Source of the DNA: Prevotella sp.
GTDB lineage: Bacteria > Bacteroidota > Bacteroidia > Bacteroidales > Bacteroidaceae
Direction: 5' to 3'
DNA: 60,603 nt
Assembly: GCA_017538105.1 (NCBI GenBank)
Contig: JAFYJN010000083.1
Span: 1-60,603, forward strand
Notes under the pieces: model-generated
What the model saw: only the letters and a program-made list of their open reading frames with translations
Database searches by the model: none
What the model was told of the DNA's origin: nothing
Shown: piece after piece, positions 910 through 11,144 of the stretch
Position numbering within the stretch: position 1 is the first letter of the stretch
Layout of the letters: the number at the start of each line of letters is the position of its first letter
Translations under genes and position numbers: made by a program

Positions 910-2214
910 CTACCTGATTACGACATCTATTCCTCCAATAGCTTCATGTGGAGTTGCTGTAAGAACCTTGTCTTTAAGTTCTTGAGAAATGGGGAGAGAG
1001 CGGAAGTCAGATTCTGCATCGCGATGGATGGGGATAATAGCATAGCGCGGATTTACCTTTTCACAAACAGAAGCTAAAGCCTCCCTTGAAGCATGACCTG
1101 AAGTATGAAGGTACTCTATGTGCCAATCCTTGCTATGAACGAAATCATAGGTTCGTTGTTGAAAGGCTTTGTGCCCCTTCAGTACATATCCACGAAACTG
1201 CGAATAGACAAGGCAAGTCCTTTCTGGATTCATCAAAGGATAAAGTTCGTCTATCATTTTCCGAATCTGGTAGTTATTTCTGATTAACATCGTAATACCA
1301 TTTCGAGGGATATTCTTCTGTATTTCTTCCTTATGTTTATTGTAATAGAGTTGACCCCTAAAACGATAGCGCCAAGCTATAGGGTCAGCACCTAATGTTT
1401 CGCTAATAGTCTTCATTTGCATCCACTGATAGCCATCAACCACAAAAGGTCTGCCTTTGAATTCCTTGTTGGCATTGTAGAACGAGGAAATACGGTCGGC
1501 ATCCATAGAACTGCACATTACAAAGACATTATCGTATTCTTTCATTAGTCCGATAGCACTCTTCATCAGTTCTTCTTCCGATTGCACCCTGCTGTCATTA
1601 CGGCTCAGCATAGTACCTTCTGTTATGAGAACATCTATCTTTTGACGAGTAATATATGTAGCGATTGTTGGCAAAAGTCCCTTACCGCGATAACCATGAT
1701 CACGGAAATCACCTGTATGCAGAATCCTGCGTCCATCGCATTCTACCACAAACATATAGGCGTCAGCAGCAGAATGACTCACAAAGTAAGGGGTCACACG
1801 GATGCCACCAATTTCAATTGTTTCTTTAGCATCATATTCACCGAAGCTCCCTATAGCATCATAACTCTTCTGCAATACTTCTTTCCGCTCTTCCTTTGCG
1901 CTATAGGCCTGATGCCCCTTTAGTACTAACAACATCGCTTTGCTGGCCTTCCCGATATATTGCGGAATCCCAGCCTCTTTCACTTTAGCCTCGAAACTCA
2001 AGTGGTCGCCATGAGGATGTGTATAGAACACAGCATTTACCCCTTCTAGGAGTTCATCCATCTTTTCTGGTTGGTCATAGATGTCATCTGAAGGCTTATC
2101 GCCCTCAGGCAGGTTATGCCCAAGGTCGATAAGTATCTTTGTTCCTTTCTCAGACTTTATCTCTGTGATACAGCCCCCAATCTGGTTTATGCCGCGATGA
2201 ATGGTGATGGTCAT
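910..2214 (-). CDS. Beta-CASP / RNase J-like metallo-beta-lactamase-fold hydrolase
   Basis: This 434-residue protein carries the metallo-beta-lactamase zinc motif HPHGDH near residue 66, a later metal-ligand segment LHTGDFRDHG (about 165), and a beta-CASP-like insert with the HTSGHAS motif near residue 372, which in RNase J/CPSF-type enzymes binds RNA phosphate. A final IPIHRD resembles the last metal-ligand region. Members cleave or process RNA; this one is short compared with RNase J (about 550) and lacks an obvious C-terminal domain. Its ATG overlaps the stop of the upstream nuclease-like gene (ATGA), so the two are translationally coupled. Context with a WYL regulator suggests an accessory or defence-related RNA nuclease rather than the housekeeping enzyme. 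Family confidence is high; the exact substrate is unknown. Confidence 0.8.
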   Translation of the reverse strand: MTITIHRGINQIGGCITEIKSEKGTKILIDLGHNLPEGDKPSDDIYDQPEKMDELLEGVNAVFYTHPHGDHLSFEAKVKEAGIPQYIGKASKAMLLVLKGHQAYSAKEERKEVLQKSYDAIGSFGEYDAKETIEIGGIRVTPYFVSHSAADAYMFVVECDGRRILHTGDFRDHGYRGKGLLPTIATYITRQKIDVLITEGTMLSRNDSRVQSEEELMKSAIGLMKEYDNVFVMCSSMDADRISSFYNANKEFKGRPFVVDGYQWMQMKTISETLGADPIAWRYRFRGQLYYNKHKEEIQKNIPRNGITMLIRNNYQIRKMIDELYPLMNPERTCLVYSQFRGYVLKGHKAFQQRTYDFVHSKDWHIEYLHTSGHASREALASVCEKVNPRYAIIPIHRDAESDFRSLPISQELKDKVLTATPHEAIGGIDVVIR

Positions 2215-3167
2215 TGATTAACAATTTCTACGTCGTAATATGTTCTGTCTAAAATGTCTTTTATTTGAATATCGGGCAGAGTAGCTTTTGAAAAAAGAAA
2301 AACAGGCCTAAAGGTTGAATTATGTTCAATCATATCAAAGTAATCCCCTTCCTTTTTTATCAACGATGACAATCGATTACATTTCCATCGCTTATCGCTG
2401 AATAGATACCCACTCATTGTCTGTTTCGGCGTATTATTTGAATTTCCATCGGGATTGTCGTTTAATGTAATAAAATAGAATTCTGGTTCAGAAGCAAAAT
2501 TCTCAATGGAAACATTTCTCAAAGACTCTGGCACATCAACTCCTAAAATGTGTAGTTTGTGTATGATTGTAATTATTTCTGGTTTAAGAGTTTCAAATTT
2601 TTTGTTCTTGAAGAATGAATAGAAATCTTTTACATGCGTTCTAATGCCAGACGGCTCCTTCAAAGCAGATGCTCCATATTTTAGTTCAATGAGGGCAACG
2701 TGGAAGGGAGAATCTTTGCTTATGGCAATAATATCAAATCTCCAATCTTCTGCTTTTCTCTTCCCTTGCAAAGACTTTGTATATTCCACATCAATGCAAA
2801 ACCACTTGGATTCAGAGTTATTATTGTTATCCATGAATAGCCTTTGTTGGGCTTGCTTTTCATTCTTCTTCCTTTTATTGCTATTCTCTATTATTGTATC
2901 ATAAAGGGAAACAAATTCGTTGTCTGTGAGTTTATTTTTTTCTCCATTTGTATAGTATTTGTCAATTATACATTTATTGGGATTTTTTACTTCAATTTTG
3001 GCGATACTATCACAGTTGTAATAGAGGTTAATAAAACTGTCGCGCACACCAATGATGATTTCATTTTTATGATTGACATAAATGTTGTTATAAAAAAGAC
3101 TCTTTTTGAATGAATCTGCAAAGGCATTGTCAATGGACGTACCTCTAAATGAATCACGATTTTTCAT
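2211..3167 (-). CDS. PD-(D/E)XK nuclease-like protein
   Basis: The middle of this 318-residue protein shows the spacing of a PD-(D/E)XK core: an acidic IDVEY near residue 128, WRFDIIAI near 145, and ALIELKYG near 161-163, with D and E-x-K as candidate metal ligands. I chose ATG at 3167; an in-frame GTG six codons upstream is possible. There is no signal peptide. The N-terminal 100 residues and the C-terminal 110 are not recognised. It lies between the WYL regulator (20-38 bases upstream) and the beta-CASP hydrolase (4-base overlap), so all three probably form one operon. The gene is AT-rich and asparagine/lysine-rich compared with neighbours, suggesting recent acquisition. Nuclease activity is inference from the motif. 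Confidence 0.6.
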   Translation of the reverse strand: MKNRDSFRGTSIDNAFADSFKKSLFYNNIYVNHKNEIIIGVRDSFINLYYNCDSIAKIEVKNPNKCIIDKYYTNGEKNKLTDNEFVSLYDTIIENSNKRKKNEKQAQQRLFMDNNNNSESKWFCIDVEYTKSLQGKRKAEDWRFDIIAISKDSPFHVALIELKYGASALKEPSGIRTHVKDFYSFFKNKKFETLKPEIITIIHKLHILGVDVPESLRNVSIENFASEPEFYFITLNDNPDGNSNNTPKQTMSGYLFSDKRWKCNRLSSLIKKEGDYFDMIEHNSTFRPVFLFSKATLPDIQIKDILDRTYYDVEIVNQ

Positions 3168-3205
3168 ACTTTTTTTTACAACCACAGATGCAATAGGGAA
3201 ATTTC

Positions 3206-4123
3206 TTAATTATCGTATTTTTTTAAGGTGGAACGCAGTTTTTTCTTCATCTCATCTCTGAGCGATTCCGGCTCTAAAACTTCAACCTTATCTCCCATTG
3301 CCAGCAGTTGGCTAACCAACTCTGGCGTTACACATAAGCGATAGGTGAAATCTGCAAACTCGCGATATTTGGAACGGCCCTCCGATTGGCTTTTGTGAAG
3401 CGGAGTGGAGCGAAGATAATCTGCCTGAACGCCGTAGGCGCGGATTTTCACTTTGGTTATTGGTAAGTCTTTATTCATAAAGATGCCAACAACGTCGGAA
3501 AAATACTTCCTCACATCAAAATCCTCAGGCAACTTAAAACTATTTTTAAGGACCTTCAAACCGAGTATTCGGTCCAATGCGATAGTGCGCAATCCTTCTT
3601 GTTCTTTCAGATAGCCCAACATATACCAACGGCGATTAAAGACCCTTAGCGCAAAGGGCTGGATGTGAAACGTCTGAAGATGCTCTTCCCTCATGTTTTC
3701 ATAGCGTTGGTAATCAACTTGCAACTCTACGTTCTGTTTCATAGCCTCGATGATGGCATCCAAGTACGCTGTGCCTAACGGAATCTCTTCCAACATGATT
3801 CTATCCTTCATCCCATTGAAGGTCGTAAAGTCTTGAGGAATGCTGTACTTTCGCAGTAGCCACTTCGTTAGTCTCTGCTCATCCAGAACCTCAGGATTCT
3901 TGACATAATATACATTGCATCGTGAACGGTCACACGCAATATCCACGCCAAACATCTCCTTGATACCTTTACGATGCTCATGGAAAGTGCGTAGGGGTAT
4001 AGGTCGCCCATCGCTGGCTGGGCAATCCCTCCATAATATATTAATCTCATCGATTGTCAGAGGACTGCTGTTCAGCAACGTGTCAAGAAGCCAAATGTAT
4101 CTATAGTAAGTTTTGCTGATCAT
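3206..4123 (-). CDS. WYL-domain transcriptional regulator
   Basis: The 305-residue product has an N-terminal helix-turn-helix (about 1-75, with PLRTFHEHRKGI) and a WYL domain from about 130 with VDYQRY, then RRWYMLGYL (the WYL signature) and TIALDRI, followed by a C-terminal WCX-like extension. WYL regulators bind ligands, often nucleic acids or nucleotides, and commonly control phage-defence and RNA-repair loci. It is first in an operon with the PD-(D/E)XK-like and beta-CASP genes, which it probably regulates. It is divergent from the tRNA array starting at 4277. It is only distantly similar to the two WYL-type genes at 4981 and 5871. Confidence 0.85.
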   Translation of the reverse strand: MISKTYYRYIWLLDTLLNSSPLTIDEINILWRDCPASDGRPIPLRTFHEHRKGIKEMFGVDIACDRSRCNVYYVKNPEVLDEQRLTKWLLRKYSIPQDFTTFNGMKDRIMLEEIPLGTAYLDAIIEAMKQNVELQVDYQRYENMREEHLQTFHIQPFALRVFNRRWYMLGYLKEQEGLRTIALDRILGLKVLKNSFKLPEDFDVRKYFSDVVGIFMNKDLPITKVKIRAYGVQADYLRSTPLHKSQSEGRSKYREFADFTYRLCVTPELVSQLLAMGDKVEVLEPESLRDEMKKKLRSTLKKYDN

Positions 4124-4276: not shown

Positions 4277-4362
4277 GGAAGTATGGCTGAGTGGTCGAAA
4301 GCGGCACACTGCTAACGTGTTGAACCATCCTGGTTCCGGAGGTTCGAATCCTCCTGCTTCCG
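4277..4362 (+). tRNA. tRNA-Ser(GCT)
   Basis: The 86-base class II tRNA has acceptor GGAAGTA/TGCTTCC, discriminator G, a T-arm GGAGG-TTCGAAT-CCTCC and anticodon GCT in loop CTGCTAA. The closing pair of the anticodon stem would be A31 x C39, a mismatch. No CCA is encoded. It is the first of eight tRNAs spaced 6-11 bases apart. Confidence 0.9.
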
Positions 4363-4368
4363 CAAAAA

Positions 4369-4442
4369 GGCTCGTTAGCTCAGTTGGACAGAGCACGACG
4401 CTACGAACGTCGGTGTCGGGAGTTCGAATCTTCCACGAGTCA
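4369..4442 (+). tRNA. tRNA-Arg(ACG)
   Basis: Acceptor GGCTCGT/ACGAGTC (one G-T wobble), D-arm GCTC...GAGC, and a perfect anticodon stem CGACG/CGTCG around loop CTACGAA give anticodon ACG. Discriminator is A; CCA is not encoded. Confidence 0.93.
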
Positions 4443-4449
4443 CAAAACT

Positions 4450-4535
4450 GGAGACTTGGCAGAGTTGGCTTATTGCACTGGTCCTGAAAACCGACAGGCG
4501 GCAACGTTTTAAAGGTTCGAATCCTTTAGTCTCCG
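4450..4535 (+). tRNA. tRNA-Ser(TGA), divergent
   Basis: Acceptor GGAGACT/AGTCTCC with discriminator G, a variable arm AGGCG-GCAA-CGTTT and a T-arm with TTCGAAT support a serine tRNA. The anticodon stem CTGGT/ACCGA has one mismatch and one wobble, and the loop CCTGAAA puts C at position 33 where U is nearly universal. It may be a weakened or decoy copy. Confidence 0.8.
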
Positions 4536-4541
4536 CTACAA

Positions 4542-4612
4542 TGCCCCATGGTGTAATGGCAGCACGGCAGATTTTGAATCTGTAAGAGGTGGTTCAAATC
4601 CATCTGGAGCAA
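4542..4612 (+). tRNA. tRNA-Gln(TTG)
   Basis: Anticodon loop TTTTGAA gives TTG; the T-loop is TTCAAAT. The acceptor TGCCCCA/TGGAGCA contains a C x A mismatch at the fourth pair, unusual for a functional tRNA. Discriminator is A. Confidence 0.85.
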
Positions 4613-4618
4613 CAACAT

Positions 4619-4692
4619 GGAGTTTGTAGCTCAGTTGGTAGAGCACCAGATTGTGGCTCTGGTTGTCGCAGGTTCGAAACCTGTCAAACTCC
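4619..4692 (+). tRNA. tRNA-His(GTG)
   Basis: Stem CCAGA/TCTGG with loop TTGTGGC gives anticodon GTG. Eight acceptor pairs form when the first G is read as the histidine-specific G-1 opposite C73, the expected identity element. Confidence 0.93.
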
Positions 4693-4698
4693 CCCAAT

Positions 4699-4771
4699 GG
4701 TCGGTTCATCTAATTGGTAAGGATAGCAGATTTTCAATCTGCTTACACGAGTTCGAACCTCGTACCGACTA
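4699..4771 (+). tRNA. tRNA-Glu(TTC)
   Basis: Stem GCAGA/TCTGC around TTTTCAA gives anticodon TTC. Acceptor GGTCGGT/ACCGACT has a first-pair G-T wobble; the T-arm is CGAGG-like with TTCGAAC. Confidence 0.9.
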
Positions 4772-4782
4772 CAGAACACAAT

Positions 4783-4855
4783 GCTTCAATAGCTCAGTTG
4801 GCAGAGCAACTCACTTTTAATGAGCGGGTCGTTGGTTCAAATCCAACTTGGAGCA
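4783..4855 (+). tRNA. tRNA-Lys(TTT)
   Basis: Acceptor GCTTCAA/TTGGAGC, D-arm GCTC...GAGC and loop CTTTTAA give anticodon TTT. The outermost anticodon-stem pair is A x C. Discriminator is A. Confidence 0.92.
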
Positions 4856-4862
4856 CTAAAAC

Positions 4863-4937
4863 GTGAGGATGCCCGAGTTGGCCCAAGGGGGTGGTCTGCA
4901 AAACCATCATTCATCGGTTCGAATCCGATTCCTCACT
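4863..4937 (+). tRNA. tRNA-Cys(GCA)
   Basis: Acceptor GTGAGGA/TCCTCAC with discriminator T (the U73 expected for cysteine), and stem GTGGT/ACCAT around CTGCAAA, giving anticodon GCA. It is the last of the eight tRNAs. Confidence 0.92.
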
Positions 4938-4943
4938 CAAATA

Positions 4944-4979
4944 AAACCTCCGATTCTCAATGACTGGAATTGGAGGTTT
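4944..4979. terminator. Bidirectional terminator hairpin after the tRNA array
   Basis: A 13-bp stem (4944-4956 with 4967-4979, one G-T pair) around a 10-base loop, flanked by AAA and TTT, ends the tRNA array and faces the stop codon of the truncated WYL-type gene at 4981. Confidence 0.65.
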
Positions 4980-4980
4980 A

Positions 4981-5394
4981 TCATACGAAATTTAGAATGG
5001 ATGTCAGTCTGTTCTTCAATCTTGCAAGGACTCTCATTGTCCTAGCCGTGTCAAGGTTGTCCTTGTCGCCGAGCAAGGTGATGGCCTCCTTGATGAGCAA
5101 GCAGTCATCCTTCGACAACGGCATTTCCGTGATGGAGTAGTCGGGGTCGGCATAGGTGTAGTATATCTTGTCGTACACCACAATCGGGGCGTTGTAGCCC
5201 AGTTTGTCAGACCTCATAATCTGGATATCCATCTGCACGGTTCTGGCGCATACGCCCTTGGTGATACCTTCCATGTCGTAGAGTGCATCGCAGCACGCAT
5301 CCACGAGGTCGTCAAGTGTCCACCTTCTGTATCTGTTTCTCAGACATCTGTCTATTGTCTTGTACCTGATTAGGGCATTCTTATTCGCTGGCAT
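4981..5394 (-). CDS. HTH-only paralogue of the WYL regulator (truncated)
   Basis: The first 100 residues are nearly the same as those of the complete WYL regulator at 5871-6893 (shared MPANKNALIRYKTID start, RRWTL-DLV, DALYDMEGI, RTVQ-DIQ-MRSDKLGYNAPI, YADxDYSI). After about residue 105 the sequences drift apart and the protein ends at 137, so the WYL and WCX domains are absent. It keeps the winged-helix part and could still bind DNA as a competitor, or it may be a decaying duplicate. A structured RNA and an intrinsic terminator (5421-5462) separate it from the nearest clear promoter, so its expression may be attenuated. The stop codon abuts the tRNA-array terminator. Confidence 0.75.
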   Translation of the reverse strand: MPANKNALIRYKTIDRCLRNRYRRWTLDDLVDACCDALYDMEGITKGVCARTVQMDIQIMRSDKLGYNAPIVVYDKIYYTYADPDYSITEMPLSKDDCLLIKEAITLLGDKDNLDTARTMRVLARLKNRLTSILNFV

Positions 5395-5419
5395 GGTTCT
5401 TTCTTCATTTGTAAATTGA

Positions 5420-5690
5420 TAAAAAAATAGTTGGAAATTCCCAGTTAGGATATTCCAACTATCGTTTTATCTCTTGCTTGTCTATTGCATCCTATGATGC
5501 ATAGAAGAAATTACTATGCTCGTGTTGATGTGGAAATCCTATACCGTCTTTGACTGATGATTTGCTAAATGTATGCTCATAACAACTCCGTTCAAAGCGT
5601 CGATAACTCTGAACGAACGATTGTGATGTATGTGCAAATAGTCTCATTCCGTATAGGATAAATATCTTTCGAAACGCATTATTGCGAATT
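5420..5690 (-). ncRNA. Candidate structured RNA from a WYL-operator promoter
   Basis: On the minus strand a -7 box (5697-5704) is followed by about 270 bases and then an intrinsic terminator (perfect 10-bp stem 5427-5436 with 5453-5462, then seven T). Between them are nested helices: 5651-5659 with 5536-5544 (9 bp), 5634-5639 with 5560-5565 (6 bp), and 5610-5615 with 5589-5594 (6 bp). No convincing protein is encoded; a 51-codon frame (5492-5647) has no recognisable features. Just after the promoter, 5666-5679 reads ATGCGTTTCGAAAG, close to the start of the RtcB remnant at 7809 (ATGCGTTTAGAAAG), so promoter and leader look duplicated. It may be an independent RNA or the attenuated leader of the HTH-only gene. 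Confidence 0.5.
5421..5462 (-). terminator. Intrinsic terminator of the candidate RNA
   Basis: A perfect 10-bp stem with a 16-base loop is followed on the minus strand by seven T residues. It lies upstream of the HTH-only gene (start 5394). Confidence 0.75.
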
Positions 5691-5696
5691 CGGCTG

Positions 5697-5733
5697 CAAA
5701 GATACACAATAAGAACGAAATCTTTTTGCGTAG
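5697..5733 (-). promoter_or_regulatory. Promoter with degenerate WYL-type operator
   Basis: The -7 box TATCTTTG (complement of 5697-5704) is followed 8 bases upstream by a 21-base site (5713-5733) matching 15 of 21 positions of the operator at 7680-7700, including an intact TTGCGTAG half. The 8-base spacing is the same as at the two divergent promoters near 7.7 kb. Confidence 0.6.
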
Positions 5734-5870
5734 CTGGAAAAAGTTTTGTATTTAACATAAAAACATCTTGGAATCCTCCTTATACAGTTTCTGAGATGCA
5801 AGTTCACTTGACCTCCTTCAATCTATCCTCCTTTTTCTTTTAGTCTGCATCTCCTAGTGACCTGCTCCTC

Positions 5871-6893
5871 TTAAACGGTTGTTTCATAGAGTTCCAAAGC
5901 CTCTTTCAGCTTGTCATGCATGTAATTCATGACATTCTTCGGATAAATGATCTTGATGCCAGGTCCATACGACATGAAAACGGAATACATCTCAAAATTG
6001 ATAACCACATCAATCCTGAAGATACAACTTCCGTCTTCGGTGTTCTCTTGTAACAGTTGTTGAGAGCGATGTATTGGTTTGGTCTTGATGTACTTGCTTT
6101 GCTCGGCATTTGCCCAGAACTTGATGGTTCTAGGCGTATTCTTAATGTTTTTGCTAACGCCAATCACATCGTCGAAGAAGTGCTCAGGGTCAAAATCAGG
6201 ATTCTCCCTGAAGGGAACCATGGTAGGTTCAAGGCTTTTGATTCGGTCAAGAGCCAGGTTGAAAAGTTTCAGGTCATCCGCCTTGGAGCCGAATAGGAAC
6301 CAACGGTTGCGGAACTCTTTCAGCAGATACGGAAATATGATGAATTCTTTGGGCTGCCTTGCATTAAAGGATTGATACATGATACGGAGTGTCTGCTTAT
6401 GCGCGATGTATTTATAAAGAGGATTAAGCAGATGAATGCCCTCCAAATTCGGGACACTGTCGAAATGGATGATGGGCTTGCGGTTATTACGGCTAATGGC
6501 CAGCTTATCCTGCAAGCGACTGACGATATCCGACATCTCAGAGAACTGTTCGAAATCTTCCAGTTGGCGTAGCATGTCCACAGCTTCCTGCATCACATCA
6601 TAGTCATTCTGTGACATGGGCATGTTCATGATGGAATAGTCTTTGTCCGCATAGCGGTAGTACTTGTGGTCATATACCTCAATAGGAGCATTGTAACCAA
6701 GCTTGTCGGAGCGCATCACCTGGATGTCACCTTGTACCGTCCGTACAGAAACACCCTTGCGGATGCCCTCCATATCATAGAGCGCATCCGAACAGGCTTC
6801 AACCAAGTCTTCGAGCGTCCACCGGCGATAGTGGTTGCGAAGACAGTTGTCGATAGTCTTGTATCGTATCAACGCATTTTTGTTTGCTGGCAT
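5871..6893 (-). CDS. WYL-domain transcriptional regulator of the RNA island
   Basis: This is a complete 340-residue regulator: a winged helix (1-100, RRWTLEDLV and RTVQGDIQVMRSD), then a WYL domain with IMYQSFNA, FRNRWFLFG (the W-F-L variant of the signature) and LALDRI, and a C-terminal WCX region ending in a typical MSYGPGIKIIYP segment. It is 12 bases downstream of the ATPase gene and shares its promoter, which carries one of two facing 21-base operators; it is therefore the best candidate for the factor binding them, as activator or repressor. WYL proteins often respond to nucleic-acid or nucleotide ligands released by damage or infection. A truncated copy lies at 4981-5394. Confidence 0.88.
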   Translation of the reverse strand: MPANKNALIRYKTIDNCLRNHYRRWTLEDLVEACSDALYDMEGIRKGVSVRTVQGDIQVMRSDKLGYNAPIEVYDHKYYRYADKDYSIMNMPMSQNDYDVMQEAVDMLRQLEDFEQFSEMSDIVSRLQDKLAISRNNRKPIIHFDSVPNLEGIHLLNPLYKYIAHKQTLRIMYQSFNARQPKEFIIFPYLLKEFRNRWFLFGSKADDLKLFNLALDRIKSLEPTMVPFRENPDFDPEHFFDDVIGVSKNIKNTPRTIKFWANAEQSKYIKTKPIHRSQQLLQENTEDGSCIFRIDVVINFEMYSVFMSYGPGIKIIYPKNVMNYMHDKLKEALELYETTV

Positions 6894-6905
6894 AGTTATA
6901 TTCTC

Positions 6906-7649
6906 TTATCTAAACAACTCATTGATTATCATATTTCTGTTCATGATGAATGACAGCATGTCCCTGTAGATATGACAGTCCTCATAATCAGTAGTTATGA
7001 GTCGGCCATCATCTATGACCAGGATCTCTGCATCTGGAAAGGATAAAATGACCGGGGAATGTGTGGCAATAATAACCTGTGAGCCAGCAGCCACTGCATC
7101 CTTCATCCACACCAGGAAACGCAACTGATTTGTATAGGACAAAGCTGCCTCTGGCTCATCGAAGATGTACAGGCCACGATTTCTGAGCCTGTTCATGACC
7201 AGAGAGATGAAGCTCTCCCCGTGAGACTGTTCATGAAGGCTCCTTCCACCATAGCTGTCAAGCATTCTACCGTCTTCCCTCTGTAGTCTGTCCACTTCCG
7301 AAGCTACATTATAAAAACTCTCGGCACGGAAGAAAAAGGCGTTTCTGTAGCTCAGGTCTGCACGTATGGGTCTCAGTTCCTCATACAAACGGGAATGCGT
7401 TTCCCATGTACTGAAGTTAAAGTTACGGCTTCCCCCTTCCGGATTAAGCTTGAGGATGGTAGCTATGGCTTCGAGCAAGGTTGACTTCCCAGAGCCGTTT
7501 TCACCGACAATATATGTCACGCTCCTGTTAAACTCCAATGAAGTCAGATTTCTGACCACAGGAAGTGTGAAGGGATAGTCTTCCGGCTCTTTTGGAATAT
7601 GCTCATTCCTTATTCCTTTGAGGAAGATATTCTGTCCGTTGATATTCAT
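6906..7649 (-). CDS. SMC/RecF-type ABC ATPase
   Basis: The protein has a Walker A motif GENGSGKST (about residue 50), an ABC-signature-like HGESF (about 145), Walker B LYIFDEPEAAL (about 160) and the H-loop IIATHSP (about 195). With 247 residues it is only the ATPase core, without a long coiled coil, as in the stand-alone AAA/ABC ATPases common in defence and repair loci. ATG at 7649 was chosen; an immediately preceding GTG (7652) is possible. The leader from the predicted start site is under 10 bases. It is first in the leftward operon with the WYL regulator. Its partner is not evident; RNA or DNA end sensing is inference. Confidence 0.85.
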   Translation of the reverse strand: MNINGQNIFLKGIRNEHIPKEPEDYPFTLPVVRNLTSLEFNRSVTYIVGENGSGKSTLLEAIATILKLNPEGGSRNFNFSTWETHSRLYEELRPIRADLSYRNAFFFRAESFYNVASEVDRLQREDGRMLDSYGGRSLHEQSHGESFISLVMNRLRNRGLYIFDEPEAALSYTNQLRFLVWMKDAVAAGSQVIIATHSPVILSFPDAEILVIDDGRLITTDYEDCHIYRDMLSFIMNRNMIINELFR

Positions 7650-7663
7650 CACTCTTTTTTTTG

Positions 7664-7700
7664 CAAAGATAACACTTTTCTACGCAACCTATTTGCGCAG
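7664..7700 (-). promoter_or_regulatory. Leftward promoter with 21-base operator
   Basis: The -7 box TATCTTTG (complement of 7664-7671) lies 8 bases from operator 1 (7680-7700), which has form CTACGCAA-N5-TTGCGCAG. The operator occupies the -33 position, and no TTTG is present there, so activation by the bound regulator is plausible. Confidence 0.7.
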
Positions 7701-7748
7701 AACTCAAAAAACATACTAAATTTGCTGTTTTTAATAAGATTTTTCTAT

Positions 7749-7785
7749 CTGCGCAGAAAGATTGCGTAGTACATATCTACCTTTG
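7749..7785 (+). promoter_or_regulatory. Rightward promoter with 21-base operator
   Basis: Operator 2 (7749-7769) is the inverted match of operator 1 at 18 of 21 positions and lies 8 bases before the -7 box TACCTTTG (7778-7785). The two promoters are back to back. This one starts the transcript carrying the RtcB remnant, the RNA array and the RING-TerD gene, ATG of the remnant being 23 bases after the box. Confidence 0.72.
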
Positions 7786-7808
7786 CATCGCGATTCGGTT
7801 AAAACCGG

Positions 7809-8033
7809 ATGCGTTTAGAAAGCATGTCTCGAACGATGACTATCAAGACGCTGGACATGCAGCAGGAAGTCACCCAGCTCGAAGCTAAAGGCATCGTCCA
7901 CGCCATCCGTTCGCAGGAGGACATGCAGGAGGCCTCAGGTGCCTATAAGGACATCGAAGAGGTGATAGCAAACGAGGCAGACCTTGTAAGAGTGAAGACA
8001 AGACTGCTTCCTGTAGCGGTAATAAAGGGATAA
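7809..8033 (+). pseudogene. C-terminal remnant of an RtcB RNA ligase
   Basis: The 74-residue frame matches the end of RtcB: MSRT as after the HGAGR motif, then GAYKDIEEVIANEADLV and a final LLPVAVIKG, corresponding to the conserved AYKxID...ADLV...VKG end of the family. A full RtcB is about 400-480 residues. Here everything upstream is missing, including the metal ligands and the histidine that carries GMP, so it cannot be a ligase on its own. The regulated promoter and a short leader are retained directly in front, which points to an internal deletion between promoter and C-terminus. Whether the short peptide is made is unknown. It precedes the tRNA-like array in the same direction. Confidence 0.75.
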
Positions 8034-8077
8034 TTCAAGAGAAAAAACCAAAATAGAAAACACTTTTAGGTTGTTAT

Positions 8078-8162
8078 GGTCTCATGGTAAAGCCATGATG
8101 TCGGAACGGAGGCTGCTGAACAAGCAAGATGAGAAGGTTCGAATCCTTCCGCCGTGAGACCT
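8078..8162 (+). ncRNA. tRNA-like RNA A
   Basis: A perfect 7-bp acceptor-like stem (GGTCTCA 8078-8084 with TGAGACC 8155-8161) encloses a canonical T-arm GAAGG-TTCGAAT-CCTTC (8133-8149). Five extra bases (CGCCG) sit between T-stem and acceptor, and the middle does not form a normal D-arm or anticodon arm. It therefore looks like a tRNA elbow/acceptor mimic. No CCA is encoded. Confidence 0.65.
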
Positions 8163-8166
8163 AATC

Positions 8167-8239
8167 GGAACTTTGGCAGACTTGGTGTATGCGCAGGACT
8201 GAAAATCCTGTGAACGTGGTTCGACTCCACGAGGTTCCA
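8167..8239 (+). tRNA. tRNA-like RNA B, tRNA-Phe(GAA)-like
   Basis: All arms form: acceptor GGAACTT/AGGTTCC, a 3-bp D-stem GCA/TGC, anticodon stem CAGGA/TCCTG with loop CTGAAAA (anticodon GAA), and T-arm CGTGG-TTCGACT-CCACG; discriminator A. It is the only member of this array with a normal cloverleaf. It might be a charged tRNA-Phe variant or a mimic. Confidence 0.65.
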
Positions 8240-8242
8240 CAA

Positions 8243-8325
8243 AAGACGGTCCAAACGGTTCTTACTCCTTGATCTGAGAGAGCCCAGACTGTGGGGCGTT
8301 AAAACAGAATCGTACTTTCCGTCTT
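8243..8325 (+). ncRNA. Hairpin RNA E1 (repeat family)
   Basis: Lower stem AAGACGG (8243-8249) with CCGTCTT (8319-8325); upper stem 8255-8262 with 8306-8313 (8 bp, one G-T); apical stem GCCC/GGGC (8282-8285, 8294-8297). It shares GGTC at the top of the lower stem and TACTCCT directly after the upper stem with E2-E4, and is the most divergent of the four. Confidence 0.55.
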
Positions 8326-8333
8326 CCCCATAT

Positions 8334-8426
8334 GCGGCGGTAAGCTTCGTAATTGCCATAGTGTTGGCCCAAACGTTTGCTTACACCTAAAGGTTACTGC
8401 TGGTTCGAATCCAGCCCGCCGCACCA
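8334..8426 (+). ncRNA. tRNA-like RNA C with encoded CCA
   Basis: Acceptor GCGGCGG (8334-8340) pairs with CCGCCGC (8416-8422), then A and an encoded CCA. The T-arm GCTGG-TTCGAAT-CCAGC is canonical. In place of D- and anticodon arms is one long hairpin: TAAGC (8341-8345) with GCTTA (8379-8383) and an inner GCCA/TGGC. It has a tRNA-like 3' half without an anticodon. Confidence 0.68.
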
Positions 8427-8429
8427 TAA

Positions 8430-8504
8430 AAGAGTGGTCAAGGACGGCTTACTTCTACGACTTTTCGCTAAAGAGGCTCCGATAGCCGGCCAATTACCTC
8501 TCTT
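8430..8504 (+). ncRNA. Hairpin RNA E2 (repeat family)
   Basis: Lower stem 8430-8438 with 8496-8504 (AAGAG/CTCTT plus GGT/ACC, one T x T), GGTCAAGG, upper stem CGGCT/AGCCG (8445-8449, 8484-8488), then TACTTCT; apical CTTT/AAAG; 3' end CCAATTACC. Confidence 0.65.
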
Positions 8505-8507
8505 CAT

Positions 8508-8632
8508 GCTGCGATAGCTCAGCTGGAAGAGCAACAGTTTGTTGTGATGACATTTCCTGTGAAGGACCAATCACCACATACTTAGATTTTTATTATTACA
8601 GTGGGTCGCAGGTTCGAGTCCTGCTCGCAGCA
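8508..8632 (+). ncRNA. tRNA-like RNA D with expanded anticodon loop
   Basis: Acceptor GCTGCGA/TCGCAGC, D-arm GCTC...GAGC and T-arm GCAGG-TTCGAGT-CCTGC are perfect and resemble a tRNA-Thr body. The anticodon stem ACAGT/ACAGT keeps four of five pairs around an A x A mismatch, but the 7-base loop is replaced by about 65 bases that fold internally (GTGAT/ATCAC; TCCT/AGGA). Total 125 bases instead of about 73. Confidence 0.7.
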
Positions 8633-8646
8633 CAGTGATAATCAAC

Positions 8647-8723
8647 GAGGTCTAAGAGAGACTTACTCCCGATCGAGTTAGGACCACAGGTCCTAGCTAA
8701 CCATGCAGTTTCTCAATTACCTC
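8647..8723 (+). ncRNA. Hairpin RNA E3 (repeat family)
   Basis: Lower stem GAGGT (8647-8651) with ACCTC (8719-8723); upper stem 8656-8663 with 8707-8714 (8 bp, one G-T); TACTCCC follows the 5' strand; perfect 7-bp apical hairpin TAGGACC-ACA-GGTCCTA; 3' end CAATTACC. Confidence 0.68.
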
Positions 8724-8734
8724 ATAGTATTAAC

Positions 8735-8805
8735 AAGGTCAAGGCTGGCATACTTCTAGCTTTCGAGCAATTGTTTATTAAACAATCCTGCCAGTCAATT
8801 ACCTT
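8735..8805 (+). ncRNA. Hairpin RNA E4 (repeat family)
   Basis: Lower stem AAGGT (8735-8739) with ACCTT (8801-8805); upper stem 8743-8750 with 8789-8796 (8 bp, one G-T); TACTTCT follows the 5' strand; perfect 7-bp apical hairpin ATTGTTT-ATT-AAACAAT; 3' end CAATTACC. It ends 15 bases before the start of the RING-TerD gene. Confidence 0.68.
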
Positions 8806-8820
8806 TTAATTAAAAACGTT

Positions 8821-11085
8821 ATGGACAACAAAACTTTGACAAATGTAGCTCTTCGCTACCGCGCGGTGTTCCTCGACATCAACCGAGAGGACATCAACAT
8901 GAGTTCCGTGGCATCAGTGCCTGTAGTGGCGTTCACATGCCGCCTGAAGGAGAACGGGTTCTGCGTCAGCGAAGAACTGCTTCATGCGTTGAGCACCGTT
9001 TCTGCCGACCGCCTTGAAGAAATCACCAAGTGCATCAATGATGTGATGGGGGTTAACCTGAACTGGGCATCACTCGTCAAGGGATGGAACGTTCCTACTG
9101 GCGAGAGCCTTGCCGACCATCTCATCACCTTGATTGCAAATATTTTCGGCAAAGAGGCTGGCTTCAAGGGTACCACATTGCCCTGCGGCCACCTGATTCC
9201 TGAAGGTACCTTTCCTCTGGAGAGATACAACGGCTGCCCCTTCTGTGGCACGCCATTCGAGACTGCCGACTTTGTCTATAAGGGACAAGGCAGCAAGCAG
9301 AAGGAGCTGCGACTGTTCACAATCGAGGACATGAAGAGAGTCTTCCTGTCACTCCTGTCTTCAAACACTCCTCTCGACGGTACTCAGAAGGATTCGTTGG
9401 CTCAGTTGCTCCAAGTGTTCACCTTGCCTGAGGATGCTAATATCACCATGAAGGAGACGGCCATGCTTGTCGTGAAGCAGATGGTGGAGCAGGATAAGGC
9501 GGATGATGCAACGAAGCTGCTGAAAACTCCTACGGATATTCTTCGCTACCTTTGGTACGAAAAGACCGGCTATGTGCAGATTATAGAGCCAAAGACTCTT
9601 GTCGCCCATGCCCGTAAGCTCTACTACCACATGTGGGGGCCTCTCGACAGGGGCGTGGATGCGGCCAAGGACATGAAGAAGAAGCTGATGCTGAAGTACG
9701 ACCGTAAGGCATGTCTGCGTGTCGCTCTGTGGCTGAACGCCCTTCCTATGACCGCCAAGCAAGCTGCCAAGAACATGAACCCCAAGCGTGGCATGTGGGT
9801 ACGCATGATTCGCGCCCTCCGTCTGGGTGAGTATTCACGCAAGAACGGTTTCGACCACCTTGCAGAGATACTGGACGTGTTCTACAAACAGGACTACAGC
9901 ACATGGCAGGGTCGTGTGGACAAGGCTCGTTCGGAGAACGATGCCGAAAAGACGCTGGCTTTGTTGAAGGAACGTCCGGGACTCTTCGCCCGTTGCCTGT
10001 TCGCCATGATGCTCCGCTTTGGCAGCGACAAGGTGCTGGCCGCATTCTCGGAGATTGCTGACAAGATGCCTGCCCGTCTGCTGCTTTCACTCGGTAATGC
10101 GGCAGAGTCCTACTTCGACCCGAAAGAAACACGTTTGGCACGTCCCATCACCGGCGTTACCCATAAGATTGAGGCTAACAAGCTGCTGGCTCTTTATGAC
10201 GATGATAGTCGCATGGCAATGGTTGATGCCATCAACAACCTCTACAAGGAATCCATGAATCGTCGTTTTGCCGCAGTGAAGACAGAGGCGAAGACTATCT
10301 TCATCGATCCGTCGTTGTACAACATCCCTGTCAGCGTCGGCGACCGTTCGGCAACCATTCAGGATGCCTCCTGCGCCCTGATGGGTACACGCTTCCCCGT
10401 GGAAGGCGATGCCGTCCGACTGTTCCTCCAGTGGGGTAAGGGATTGCATGCCCAGTACCTTGACATGGACCTGAGCTGTCGTATTGCCCTGCCGGAAAAC
10501 AAGATTGCAGAGTGCGCCTACTATAGCCTGACCTGTGTGGGTGCCAAGCATTCGGGTGACATCCGCGCCATCCCGGAGATGGTTGGTACAGCCGAATTCA
10601 TCGAGCTTTCATTGCCTGAATTGGAGGCAGCTGGAGCCAAGTATGCAATTTTCACCTGTAATGCCTACTCGGTCGGAGCTCTCTCTCCGAATCTTGTTGT
10701 CGGCTGGATGGATTCCGCCAATCCGATGATTATCTCCGAGGAAAATGGTGTAGCCTACGATCCTTCCTGTGTTCAGCACATGGTTCGCATCAGTGAGGGC
10801 GATCTCTCAAAGGGGCTTGTGTTCGGTGTTCTCGATGTCGCTAAAAGGGAAATCATCTGGCTCGAAATGCCGTTCACATCTCAGACATTGAGAGGAGCGG
10901 ACAGCACGTCCGTCGAGGCCCTGCTTCGCAAGCTGGAGACAAAGCTGTCCATCGGTCAGCTTCTCGACATGAAGGCCAAGGGTCAGAACCTTGCTTCTGT
11001 GGAGAAGGCTGAGGATGCCGATGAAGCATACACCTATGAGTGGGCACTCAATCCGGCTGAAGTGACTATGTTGCTTAATATGTAG
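8821..11085 (+). CDS. RING-finger / TerD-like protein (MXAN_6230/SCO0854-like)
   Basis: The 754-residue protein has a RING-like zinc site at about residues 121-140 (LPCGH followed by CPFCG), a long helical middle of about 350 residues with many basic positions, and a C-terminal part (about 555-690) resembling a TerD domain (HSGDI, AEFIELSLPELEAAGAKYAIFTCNAYS, VVGWMD). This layout fits the family named MXAN_6230/SCO0854 RING-domain proteins; the assignment is from memory of that pattern. The gene follows the RNA array with no terminator between, so the array forms part of its transcript. A role as protein partner or effector for these RNAs is inferred from position. GC content is higher than the RNA array. 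A strong terminator follows. Confidence 0.72.
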   Translation: MDNKTLTNVALRYRAVFLDINREDINMSSVASVPVVAFTCRLKENGFCVSEELLHALSTVSADRLEEITKCINDVMGVNLNWASLVKGWNVPTGESLADHLITLIANIFGKEAGFKGTTLPCGHLIPEGTFPLERYNGCPFCGTPFETADFVYKGQGSKQKELRLFTIEDMKRVFLSLLSSNTPLDGTQKDSLAQLLQVFTLPEDANITMKETAMLVVKQMVEQDKADDATKLLKTPTDILRYLWYEKTGYVQIIEPKTLVAHARKLYYHMWGPLDRGVDAAKDMKKKLMLKYDRKACLRVALWLNALPMTAKQAAKNMNPKRGMWVRMIRALRLGEYSRKNGFDHLAEILDVFYKQDYSTWQGRVDKARSENDAEKTLALLKERPGLFARCLFAMMLRFGSDKVLAAFSEIADKMPARLLLSLGNAAESYFDPKETRLARPITGVTHKIEANKLLALYDDDSRMAMVDAINNLYKESMNRRFAAVKTEAKTIFIDPSLYNIPVSVGDRSATIQDASCALMGTRFPVEGDAVRLFLQWGKGLHAQYLDMDLSCRIALPENKIAECAYYSLTCVGAKHSGDIRAIPEMVGTAEFIELSLPELEAAGAKYAIFTCNAYSVGALSPNLVVGWMDSANPMIISEENGVAYDPSCVQHMVRISEGDLSKGLVFGVLDVAKREIIWLEMPFTSQTLRGADSTSVEALLRKLETKLSIGQLLDMKAKGQNLASVEKAEDADEAYTYEWALNPAEVTMLLNM

Positions 11086-11111
11086 TATCCTACTTATAAC
11101 CAAATACAATT

Positions 11112-11144
11112 CGTCCTGCTGTAAACGCAGGACGTTTTTCTTTT
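11112..11144 (+). terminator. Intrinsic terminator of the RING-TerD transcript
   Basis: Perfect 8-bp stem CGTCCTGC/GCAGGACG with loop TGTAAAC followed by TTTTTCTTTT. Confidence 0.9.

Follow-up and report, generated by a model that had tools for sequence, protein, structure and literature searches.

The window analysed here is a 60,603-nucleotide contig of Prevotella sp. (JAFYJN010000083.1, assembly GCA_017538105.1). It carries an array of eight RNA modules (8078-8806, plus strand) between a remnant of rtcB and the gene of a 754-residue protein with a RING-like motif and a TerD fold, the RING/TerD protein. Most of the modules belong to a structured RNA family that is linked to the RING/TerD gene and co-occurs with it. 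Y RNAs are known as the partners of Ro proteins. The array would give rise to small non-coding RNAs whose role for the RING/TerD protein would be much like that of Y RNAs for Ro60/Rsr, and the locus probably encodes a Ro-independent Y-RNA particle, in which the RNAs would be bound by this protein and which would function within an RNA-repair regulon. The modules and the gene are listed below; R1 is the covariance model of the hairpin, and its E values refer to the genome of the window.

8078..8161, plus: T1, tRNA-like, with an acceptor-like stem (GGTCTCA/TGAGACC) and a T arm, Y motif not seen (sequence and fold; blastn match in the array of one relative, L027)
8167..8240, plus: T2, tRNA-like, anticodon arm present (GAA) (ARAGORN; Rfam tRNA, 58.3 bits; blastn relatives in L026 and L027, outside the array there)
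8245..8323, plus: M1, hairpin, a variant whose internal loop reads ACTT on its 3' side (assigned by eye; array members of L023 and L036 related by blastn; no match by R1)
8334..8422, plus: T3, tRNA-like, with acceptor stem, Y-type stem and T arm, without D arm (parser for acceptor and T arm, permuted motif by eye; blastn relatives in nine loci)
8433..8501, plus: M2, hairpin with a Y-like stem (R1 61.6 bits, E 4.7e-12; parser)
8508..8632, plus: T4, tRNA-like, with acceptor, D arm, permuted Y-type stem replacing the anticodon arm, and T arm (Rfam tRNA, 50.1 bits with a 55-base insert)
8646..8724, plus: M3, hairpin (R1 33.3 bits, E 1.1e-4; parser)
8734..8806, plus: M4, hairpin, 14 bases 5' of the RING/TerD gene (R1 60.7 bits, E 7.9e-12; parser)
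8821..11085, plus: RING/TerD-type protein, 754 residues

The eight modules and a RING-TerD-like gene had been proposed in an earlier sequence-only reading of this DNA, and both were recovered; the kinship to bacterial Y RNAs proved stronger than that reading had claimed, with TACTTC and a two-stem element found in Ro-linked RNAs as well. No sign of the shared motif was seen in T1 and T2, and the motifs of M1 and T3, which the parsers missed in the window itself, were assigned by eye. R1 gave three significant matches in the genome of the window, all of them in the array; the fourth listed had an E value of 0.27. The Rfam 15 matches of the window RNAs were tRNA only, with no Y RNA family in 7600-8900 at E up to 5, and a scan of nine related loci revealed tRNA and one cobalamin riboswitch only.

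Structure of the hairpin RNAs and their linkage to the RING/TerD gene

The four window hairpins (M1-M4) share one layout: stem1, a (C)CAA loop facing AAUU (ACUU in one), an 8-bp stem2, and then UACUUC. Alignment of the regions upstream of the homologous genes showed that stem1 ends in GGT, GGA or GGC against ACC, TCC or GCC, and that stem2 ends in CT/AG or CA/TG with TACTTC or TACTCC directly 3' of it. Among 59 modules, TACTTC was found in 50 and TACTCC in 9, and the last pair of stem1 was T-A in 47, A-T in 8 and C-G in 4. In alignment A3 (18 modules), 95.2% of the cells were paired and 11 of the 14 pairs had changed on both sides, and pairing fell to 30-55% when the partner was slid by one to three columns; the hairpins behind the 59-module and 18-module counts came from a parser that demands pairing, so these counts lean towards structure. 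The test was therefore redone with modules picked by sequence anchors only. In this set 223 of 248 stem2 positions pair, compared with 162 on average and at most 184 when the 3' strands were re-dealt 2000 times. Both anchors are present in 31 of 40 loci, and 28 of these 31 pair at 7 or 8 of the 8 stem2 positions. For the 67 R1 matches (alignment A4, which is fitted to the R1 model itself), 93.7% of the cells pair, and 219 cells had changed on both sides against 65 in shuffles. At its loosest setting the hairpin parser found 72 upstream hairpins; the controls yielded 16 low-grade ones (coding sequence, 99,200 bases) and 7 (shuffled sequence, 95,353 bases). Two genomes (L168 and L169) have, at the same position ahead of a lipoprotein-like gene, a single hairpin with a promoter-like box of its own that is not next to any RING gene that was found.

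The expectation that homologous RING/TerD genes would carry such RNAs upstream was borne out. R1 matches were found in 35 of 40 loci (the window and 39 relatives); all 67 matches lie upstream of the RING gene on the same strand, between 791 and 7 bases before its start codon. The training sequences of R1 came from 15 of the 40 loci, and 20 of the other 25 also have a match. The conservation of RNA with gene reaches down to about 50% protein identity. When the RNA model and the protein profile were searched separately in 395 genomes of the phylum, each was found in 11, and the two sets are identical. They consist of the genome of the window and ten from one genus of another family; as related genomes, they are non-independent draws. 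Other members of this second genus (G174, G206 and G217 among those listed) have neither the RNA nor the protein. Within the genus of the window (150 genomes), the protein was found in 20, the RNA in 19 and both in 17. A tRNA cluster and an rtcB remnant are found close to the array, as would also be the case if it were a graveyard of tRNA genes and repeats on a mobile island, without any function tied to the RING protein. Such an origin is very improbable and already disfavoured, given the covariation, the conservation over the range stated above and the co-occurrence with the protein; a neutral array would not keep paired changes.

The hairpins might instead be cis-acting leader elements, read in the RING mRNA by the RING protein itself, an RNase or the ribosome to set the level of the protein, with the arrays as leader duplications. 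The nearest hairpin ends at most 40 bases from the start codon in 31 of the 35 loci, and many loci have a single hairpin there. On the other hand, the RNA and the gene are on separate contigs in two genomes, G063 (gene on C61, RNA on C30) and G009 (gene on C3, RNA on C10), which argues against a mere mRNA leader. Two more genomes, G086 (94% complete) and G148 (75%), have the RNA with no gene found; binning errors could explain some of these four cases. At the G063 copy a tRNA-like module with the permuted motif lies 3' of a hairpin, the 12 kb around it contain no RING match, and a by-eye reading places the box TATATTTG directly 5' of stem1 in G009 and G086. The hairpin of Prevotella sp. oral taxon 299 leads into a T tract, and its end is about 220 bases 5' of the gene. 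The motif is also built into tRNA bodies with covarying acceptor stems. These observations speak against the leader explanation, which we consider unlikely.

tRNA-like modules and comparison with Ro-linked Y RNAs

Two tRNA-like modules of the window (T3 and T4) bear a permuted form of the hairpin motif instead of an anticodon arm. The 55-base insert of T4 relative to the Rfam tRNA model occupies the position of the anticodon arm, and it is the hairpin motif in circular permutation: stem2', (C/A)ATT, stem1 with a small closing loop, CCAA, stem2 and TACTT. The order of elements in the tRNA-like modules is acceptor, D arm, Y stem, T arm and acceptor. Across 53 loci the permuted motif occurred 41 times in 25 loci, and a T arm came next in 30 of these cases (22 loci); coding control sequence of 115,540 bases contained the motif twice, neither time with a T arm. 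An earlier count of 20 permuted motifs includes three between neighbouring hairpins (L024, L037 and L038). Such tandem hairpins could adopt an alternative fold in which the permuted motif arises between them, from the 3' end of the first and the 5' start of the second. The acceptor stems covary between modules (GCTGCGA/TCGCAGC, GGTACGG/CCGTACC, GATCCGG/CCGGATC, ACCGCGA/TCGCGGT and GGTCCCG/CGGGACC), although some of the 48 long modules in this survey were misassigned, including the T4 acceptor of the window. In these members the element stands in a tRNA body where the anticodon arm would be, and the resulting tRNA mimic has ordinary tRNA ends.

Modules that have an acceptor stem, a D arm and a T arm but no anticodon arm could also be decoys or baits. 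As tRNA bodies lacking an anticodon loop to cleave, they would titrate tRNA-cleaving toxins or phage factors, and the RING protein would only stabilise them. Hughes et al. 2020 (PMC7790460) raise the possibility that YrlA inhibits an anticodon nuclease. We regard this role as improbable for the present RNAs, because many loci have hairpins only, without a tRNA body, and no toxin gene is tied to the array here.

TROVE (Ro) proteins were found in 27 of the 395 phylum genomes, and one genome (G438) has both the RING/RNA and the TROVE systems. In 20 TROVE loci, 13 RNAs from 11 loci have a T arm, a closed acceptor stem and a D arm in this order, i.e. a circularly permuted tRNA. TACTTC lies shortly 5' of 12 of these 13 RNAs, which had been picked by their T and D arms without the motif; the RNA of L129 is the exception. 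A two-stem element (GG / TGCCGTA / 9-bp stem2 / TACTTCG), together with its 3' partners, was parsed in 15 of the 20 loci, 20 times at a score of at least 18 in 12 loci; this parse required ACTTC, so the evidence for TACTTC comes from the set picked by T and D arms. The phylum Ro loci (L127-L146) contain YrlA-type RNAs, several of them more than one, and no Rfam match was obtained in the four TROVE loci scanned.

The RING-linked RNAs thus resemble the Ro60/Rsr-YrlA system in the two-stem element, in being encoded beside their protein, in tRNA mimicry and in a frequent linkage to rtcB. They share with the Ro loci of this phylum the UACUUC beside stem2 and the same operator of a WYL-domain regulator. 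The published layout of YrlA, as given in PMC8394870, is a basal stem with a tRNA-like domain; the Ro-linked RNAs of these loci have this layout, and the RING-linked RNAs also have a basal two-stem element with an internal loop. Their loops are (C)CAA/AATT, and the Ro-linked loop TGCCGTA/..TTGC was not found in them. Moreover, whereas YrlA is a circular permutation of tRNA according to PMC11472068, the RING-linked tRNA-like RNAs keep the normal tRNA order. No circularly permuted tRNA domain was found inside the stem among 54 RING sources, in which the 11 pattern matches join neighbouring tRNAs or tRNA-like modules (letters inspected). Common descent of the RING-linked and Ro-linked RNAs is likely. 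In the proposed particle, the protein-binding end would be formed by the two stems, the (C)CAA/AAUU internal loop between them and the UACUUC beside stem2.

The RING/TerD protein and the weighing of the particle

The RING/TerD protein comprises a helical N-terminal part, a RING-like CxH..CxxC motif (residues 122-142), helical repeats (about 165-485, AlphaFold2) and a TerD fold (528-697), which was identified by structure comparison. The RING-like match (Prok-RING_4, PF14447) scored 24 bits, just under the Pfam cut-off of 27. Among the putative zinc ligands, C122, C139 and C142 are invariant in 37 proteins and H124 is nearly so; the AlphaFold2 model is weak in this region. Searches with the whole model matched only TerD well; Foldseek against PDB gave no match at E under 0.001, and Ro was absent among the matches listed both there and in the structure comparison. 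Sequence searches of PDB gave weak, chance-like matches only. The closest described relatives are in the MXAN_6230/SCO0854 RING-domain family (NCBIfam RING_SCO0854, NF041916), with which the protein aligns over residues 12-688 (E 4.2e-48); the score of 164.2 bits, however, is far under the curated cut-off of 600. No paper naming the locus tags MXAN_6230 and SCO0854 was found in the literature searched. Phage records contain five weak relatives of the protein, the best with 72% coverage at 24% identity, and those in MT835874, NC_041887 and OP186293 are at 24-25% identity; a scan of viral contigs revealed none.

A TROVE homologue was ruled out by sequence. The TROVE profile (PF05731) had no match in the RING/TerD protein or elsewhere in the genome of the window, and a profile comparison with 19 TROVE proteins gave probabilities of 0.1 and 0.2.

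Several of the results weigh against a Y-RNA-type particle. The protein is without similarity to TROVE. R1 has no match in 5 of the 40 loci (L042, L051, L052, L056 and L064), although the parser finds a module in L056. Ten of the 11 co-occurring genomes belong to one genus, and the nearest hairpin mostly sits in the leader-like position described above. R1 matched none of five loci of RING homologues outside the phylum. It also had no match in the 20 Ro loci, which indicates that the internal loops differ and rules out that the hairpin is identical to the Ro-linked Y RNAs. Finally, rtcB is missing in most RING loci.

WYL operators, RNA-repair genes and the proposed regulon

The remaining features of the locus are as follows.

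4277-4938: eight tRNA genes (ARAGORN), scoring as ordinary tRNAs in ARAGORN and Rfam
4981..5394, minus: N-terminal paralogue of the WYL regulator, 137 residues, without a detected WYL domain (tblastn 64% over 132 residues; no Pfam match)
about 5420..5690, minus: second conserved RNA with a terminator-like stem at its end (blastn 70-79% in five loci, alignment A5, fold)
5713..5733, minus: third WYL-type operator copy, 3 mismatches (palindrome scan)
5871..6893, minus: WYL-domain regulator, 340 residues (PF13280 and PF25583)
6906-7652, leftward: SMC/RecF-type ATPase
7680..7700, minus: WYL-type operator of the leftward transcript (palindrome scan)
7749..7769, plus: WYL-type operator of the rightward transcript (palindrome scan)
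7778-7785, rightward: TAnnTTTG promoter box TACCTTTG
7809..8033, plus: rtcB remnant, last 70 or so codons only (PF01139 positions 354-426 of 426; equivalent to residues 322-390 of the 390-residue RtcB of L036)
11112-11134: terminator-like stem

Divergent transcripts with matching operators, an RtcB C-terminus, a terminator behind the RING/TerD gene and a further structured RNA had all been noted in the sequence-only reading, and each has its counterpart in this list. The remnant is the only RtcB match in the genome, and a genome search found no TROVE protein. The same reading had included the eight tRNA genes and the ATPase in the system. The tRNA array is present, but its tRNAs score as ordinary ones and ARAGORN found no such array in the 1.5 kb upstream of the RING/TerD gene in the relatives; it was rejected as a part of the system. 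The ATPase was likewise ruled out as a conserved part, with no tblastn match in the loci of 43 relatives. Both look like bystanders. Sigma-70 scans were at the shuffled level, terminator-like sites numbered 6 against a mean of 4.9, and PADLOC returned WYL and generic ATPase matches only. An RNase J-like beta-CASP protein (910-2214, minus; Pfam RMMBL; TIGR00649, E 5.7e-14) is encoded near another WYL protein (3206-4123).

The operator is common to the RING and Ro loci. The palindrome CTRCGCARAAAGAYTGCGYAG, with up to 3 mismatches, was found in 17 of 40 RING loci, 9 of the 10 loci of the second genus, 15 of 20 TROVE loci and 1 of 8 loci from plasmid records, compared with none in 601,357 shuffled bases. 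The genome of the window has three copies in the RING region and, outside it, two weak ones. The WYL regulator is encoded at full length, at 72-89% identity, in 13 of the 40 RING loci (tblastn), and relatives of it in 8 of the 10 second-genus loci (46-47%) and 12 of the 20 TROVE loci (41-47%); all ten second-genus loci had been chosen for having the RNA.

A second unit of the window (4981-5733, minus) combines an operator, about 270 bases of conserved RNA with a terminator-like stem and the 137-residue regulator copy that lacks the WYL domain. Similar units were observed in L022, L026, L027, L034 and L035. The fold of this RNA is only a suggestion, as the RNAalifold covariation term is unfavourable (+2.6) for the five sequences, two of which are nearly identical.

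The link to rtcB proposed in the sequence-only reading holds in part. Closely related full-length rtcB of the same type is present in 7 of the 40 RING loci (in L022 with a gap), and a distantly related one was found in L032. As only a remnant is left here and most loci have none, rtcB is not an obligatory partner. In L038 the array is preceded by no more than the start of rtcB (MEVKIINNCPVKIWTK) and a stop, which suggests repeated loss of rtcB with retention of the array and the RING gene. In the second genus, RtcB at 33% identity was found in 3 of 10 loci, and RtcB relatives are present in 15 of the 20 TROVE loci, five of them at 23-25% identity. In Variovorax, a RING homologue (24% identity) faces rtcR, with a sigma-54 site (TGGCACGGGCATTGC) at 7914, 72 bases before the RING start. 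These loci resemble the RtcR/RtcB operons in this respect; the window differs from them in having a WYL regulator and an rtcB remnant.

Open reading frames from five of the ten second-genus loci encode T4 Rnl1- and Rnl2-type ligases, PNKP, Hen1, a PNKP-ligase domain, Band-7 and an RNase T-type exonuclease; ten were chosen by eye from 16, and 8 of the 10 had a Pfam match. Burroughs and Aravind reportedly described, in 2016, RNA-repair systems with ATP-grasp ligases, PNKP, Hen1 and SPFH/Band-7 proteins, and such genes adjoin the RING/RNA unit in this genus. The abstract of that work is said to mention, besides Y RNAs with TROVE, a novel tRNA-like molecule that accompanies Band-7 proteins. Apart from this work, which was outside the check and may touch part of the subject, no literature joining the RING/TerD protein to Y or tRNA-like RNAs was found by title or abstract. 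Further WYL operator copies lie beside RNA-repair genes (L089-L098 and L127-L146); for example, the copy at 3452 in L095 is just before a Hen1-type gene (2141-3415). From their positions, these copies can be read as a phylum-wide RNA-repair regulon.

In the proposed particle system, RNA damage would act through the WYL regulator at the palindromic operators, and rtcB (where intact), the RNAs and the protein would be switched on together. The particle might then handle broken or misfolded tRNA beside the ligase. According to Hughes et al. 2020 (PMC7790460), tRNA fragments induce the rsr-yrlBA-rtcBA operon of Salmonella, and RNA decay or nuclease inhibition has been proposed as the role of its Y RNA. 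Similar roles are a natural guess for the RING-linked RNAs.

A broader reading, to which we give an even chance, is that the Bacteroidota have two parallel Y-RNA particles under one WYL regulon. One would consist of Ro with circularly permuted tRNA mimics. The other would be the Ro-free RING/TerD particle, with hairpin Y RNAs and un-permuted, tRNA-bodied Y RNAs that have true tRNA ends. The two RNA classes would be circular permutations of each other, perhaps once interconverted via a ligated RNA circle.

If the particle exists as proposed, the Y-RNA principle, in which a ring or scaffold protein has a tRNA mimic tethered to it, would have been adopted by a second protein without detectable similarity to TROVE. 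It would also provide a first testable role for the RING/TerD family, which is widespread but unstudied. Moreover, a pair of natural tRNA mimics related by circular permutation could be used to study the purpose of the tRNA domain in Y RNAs.

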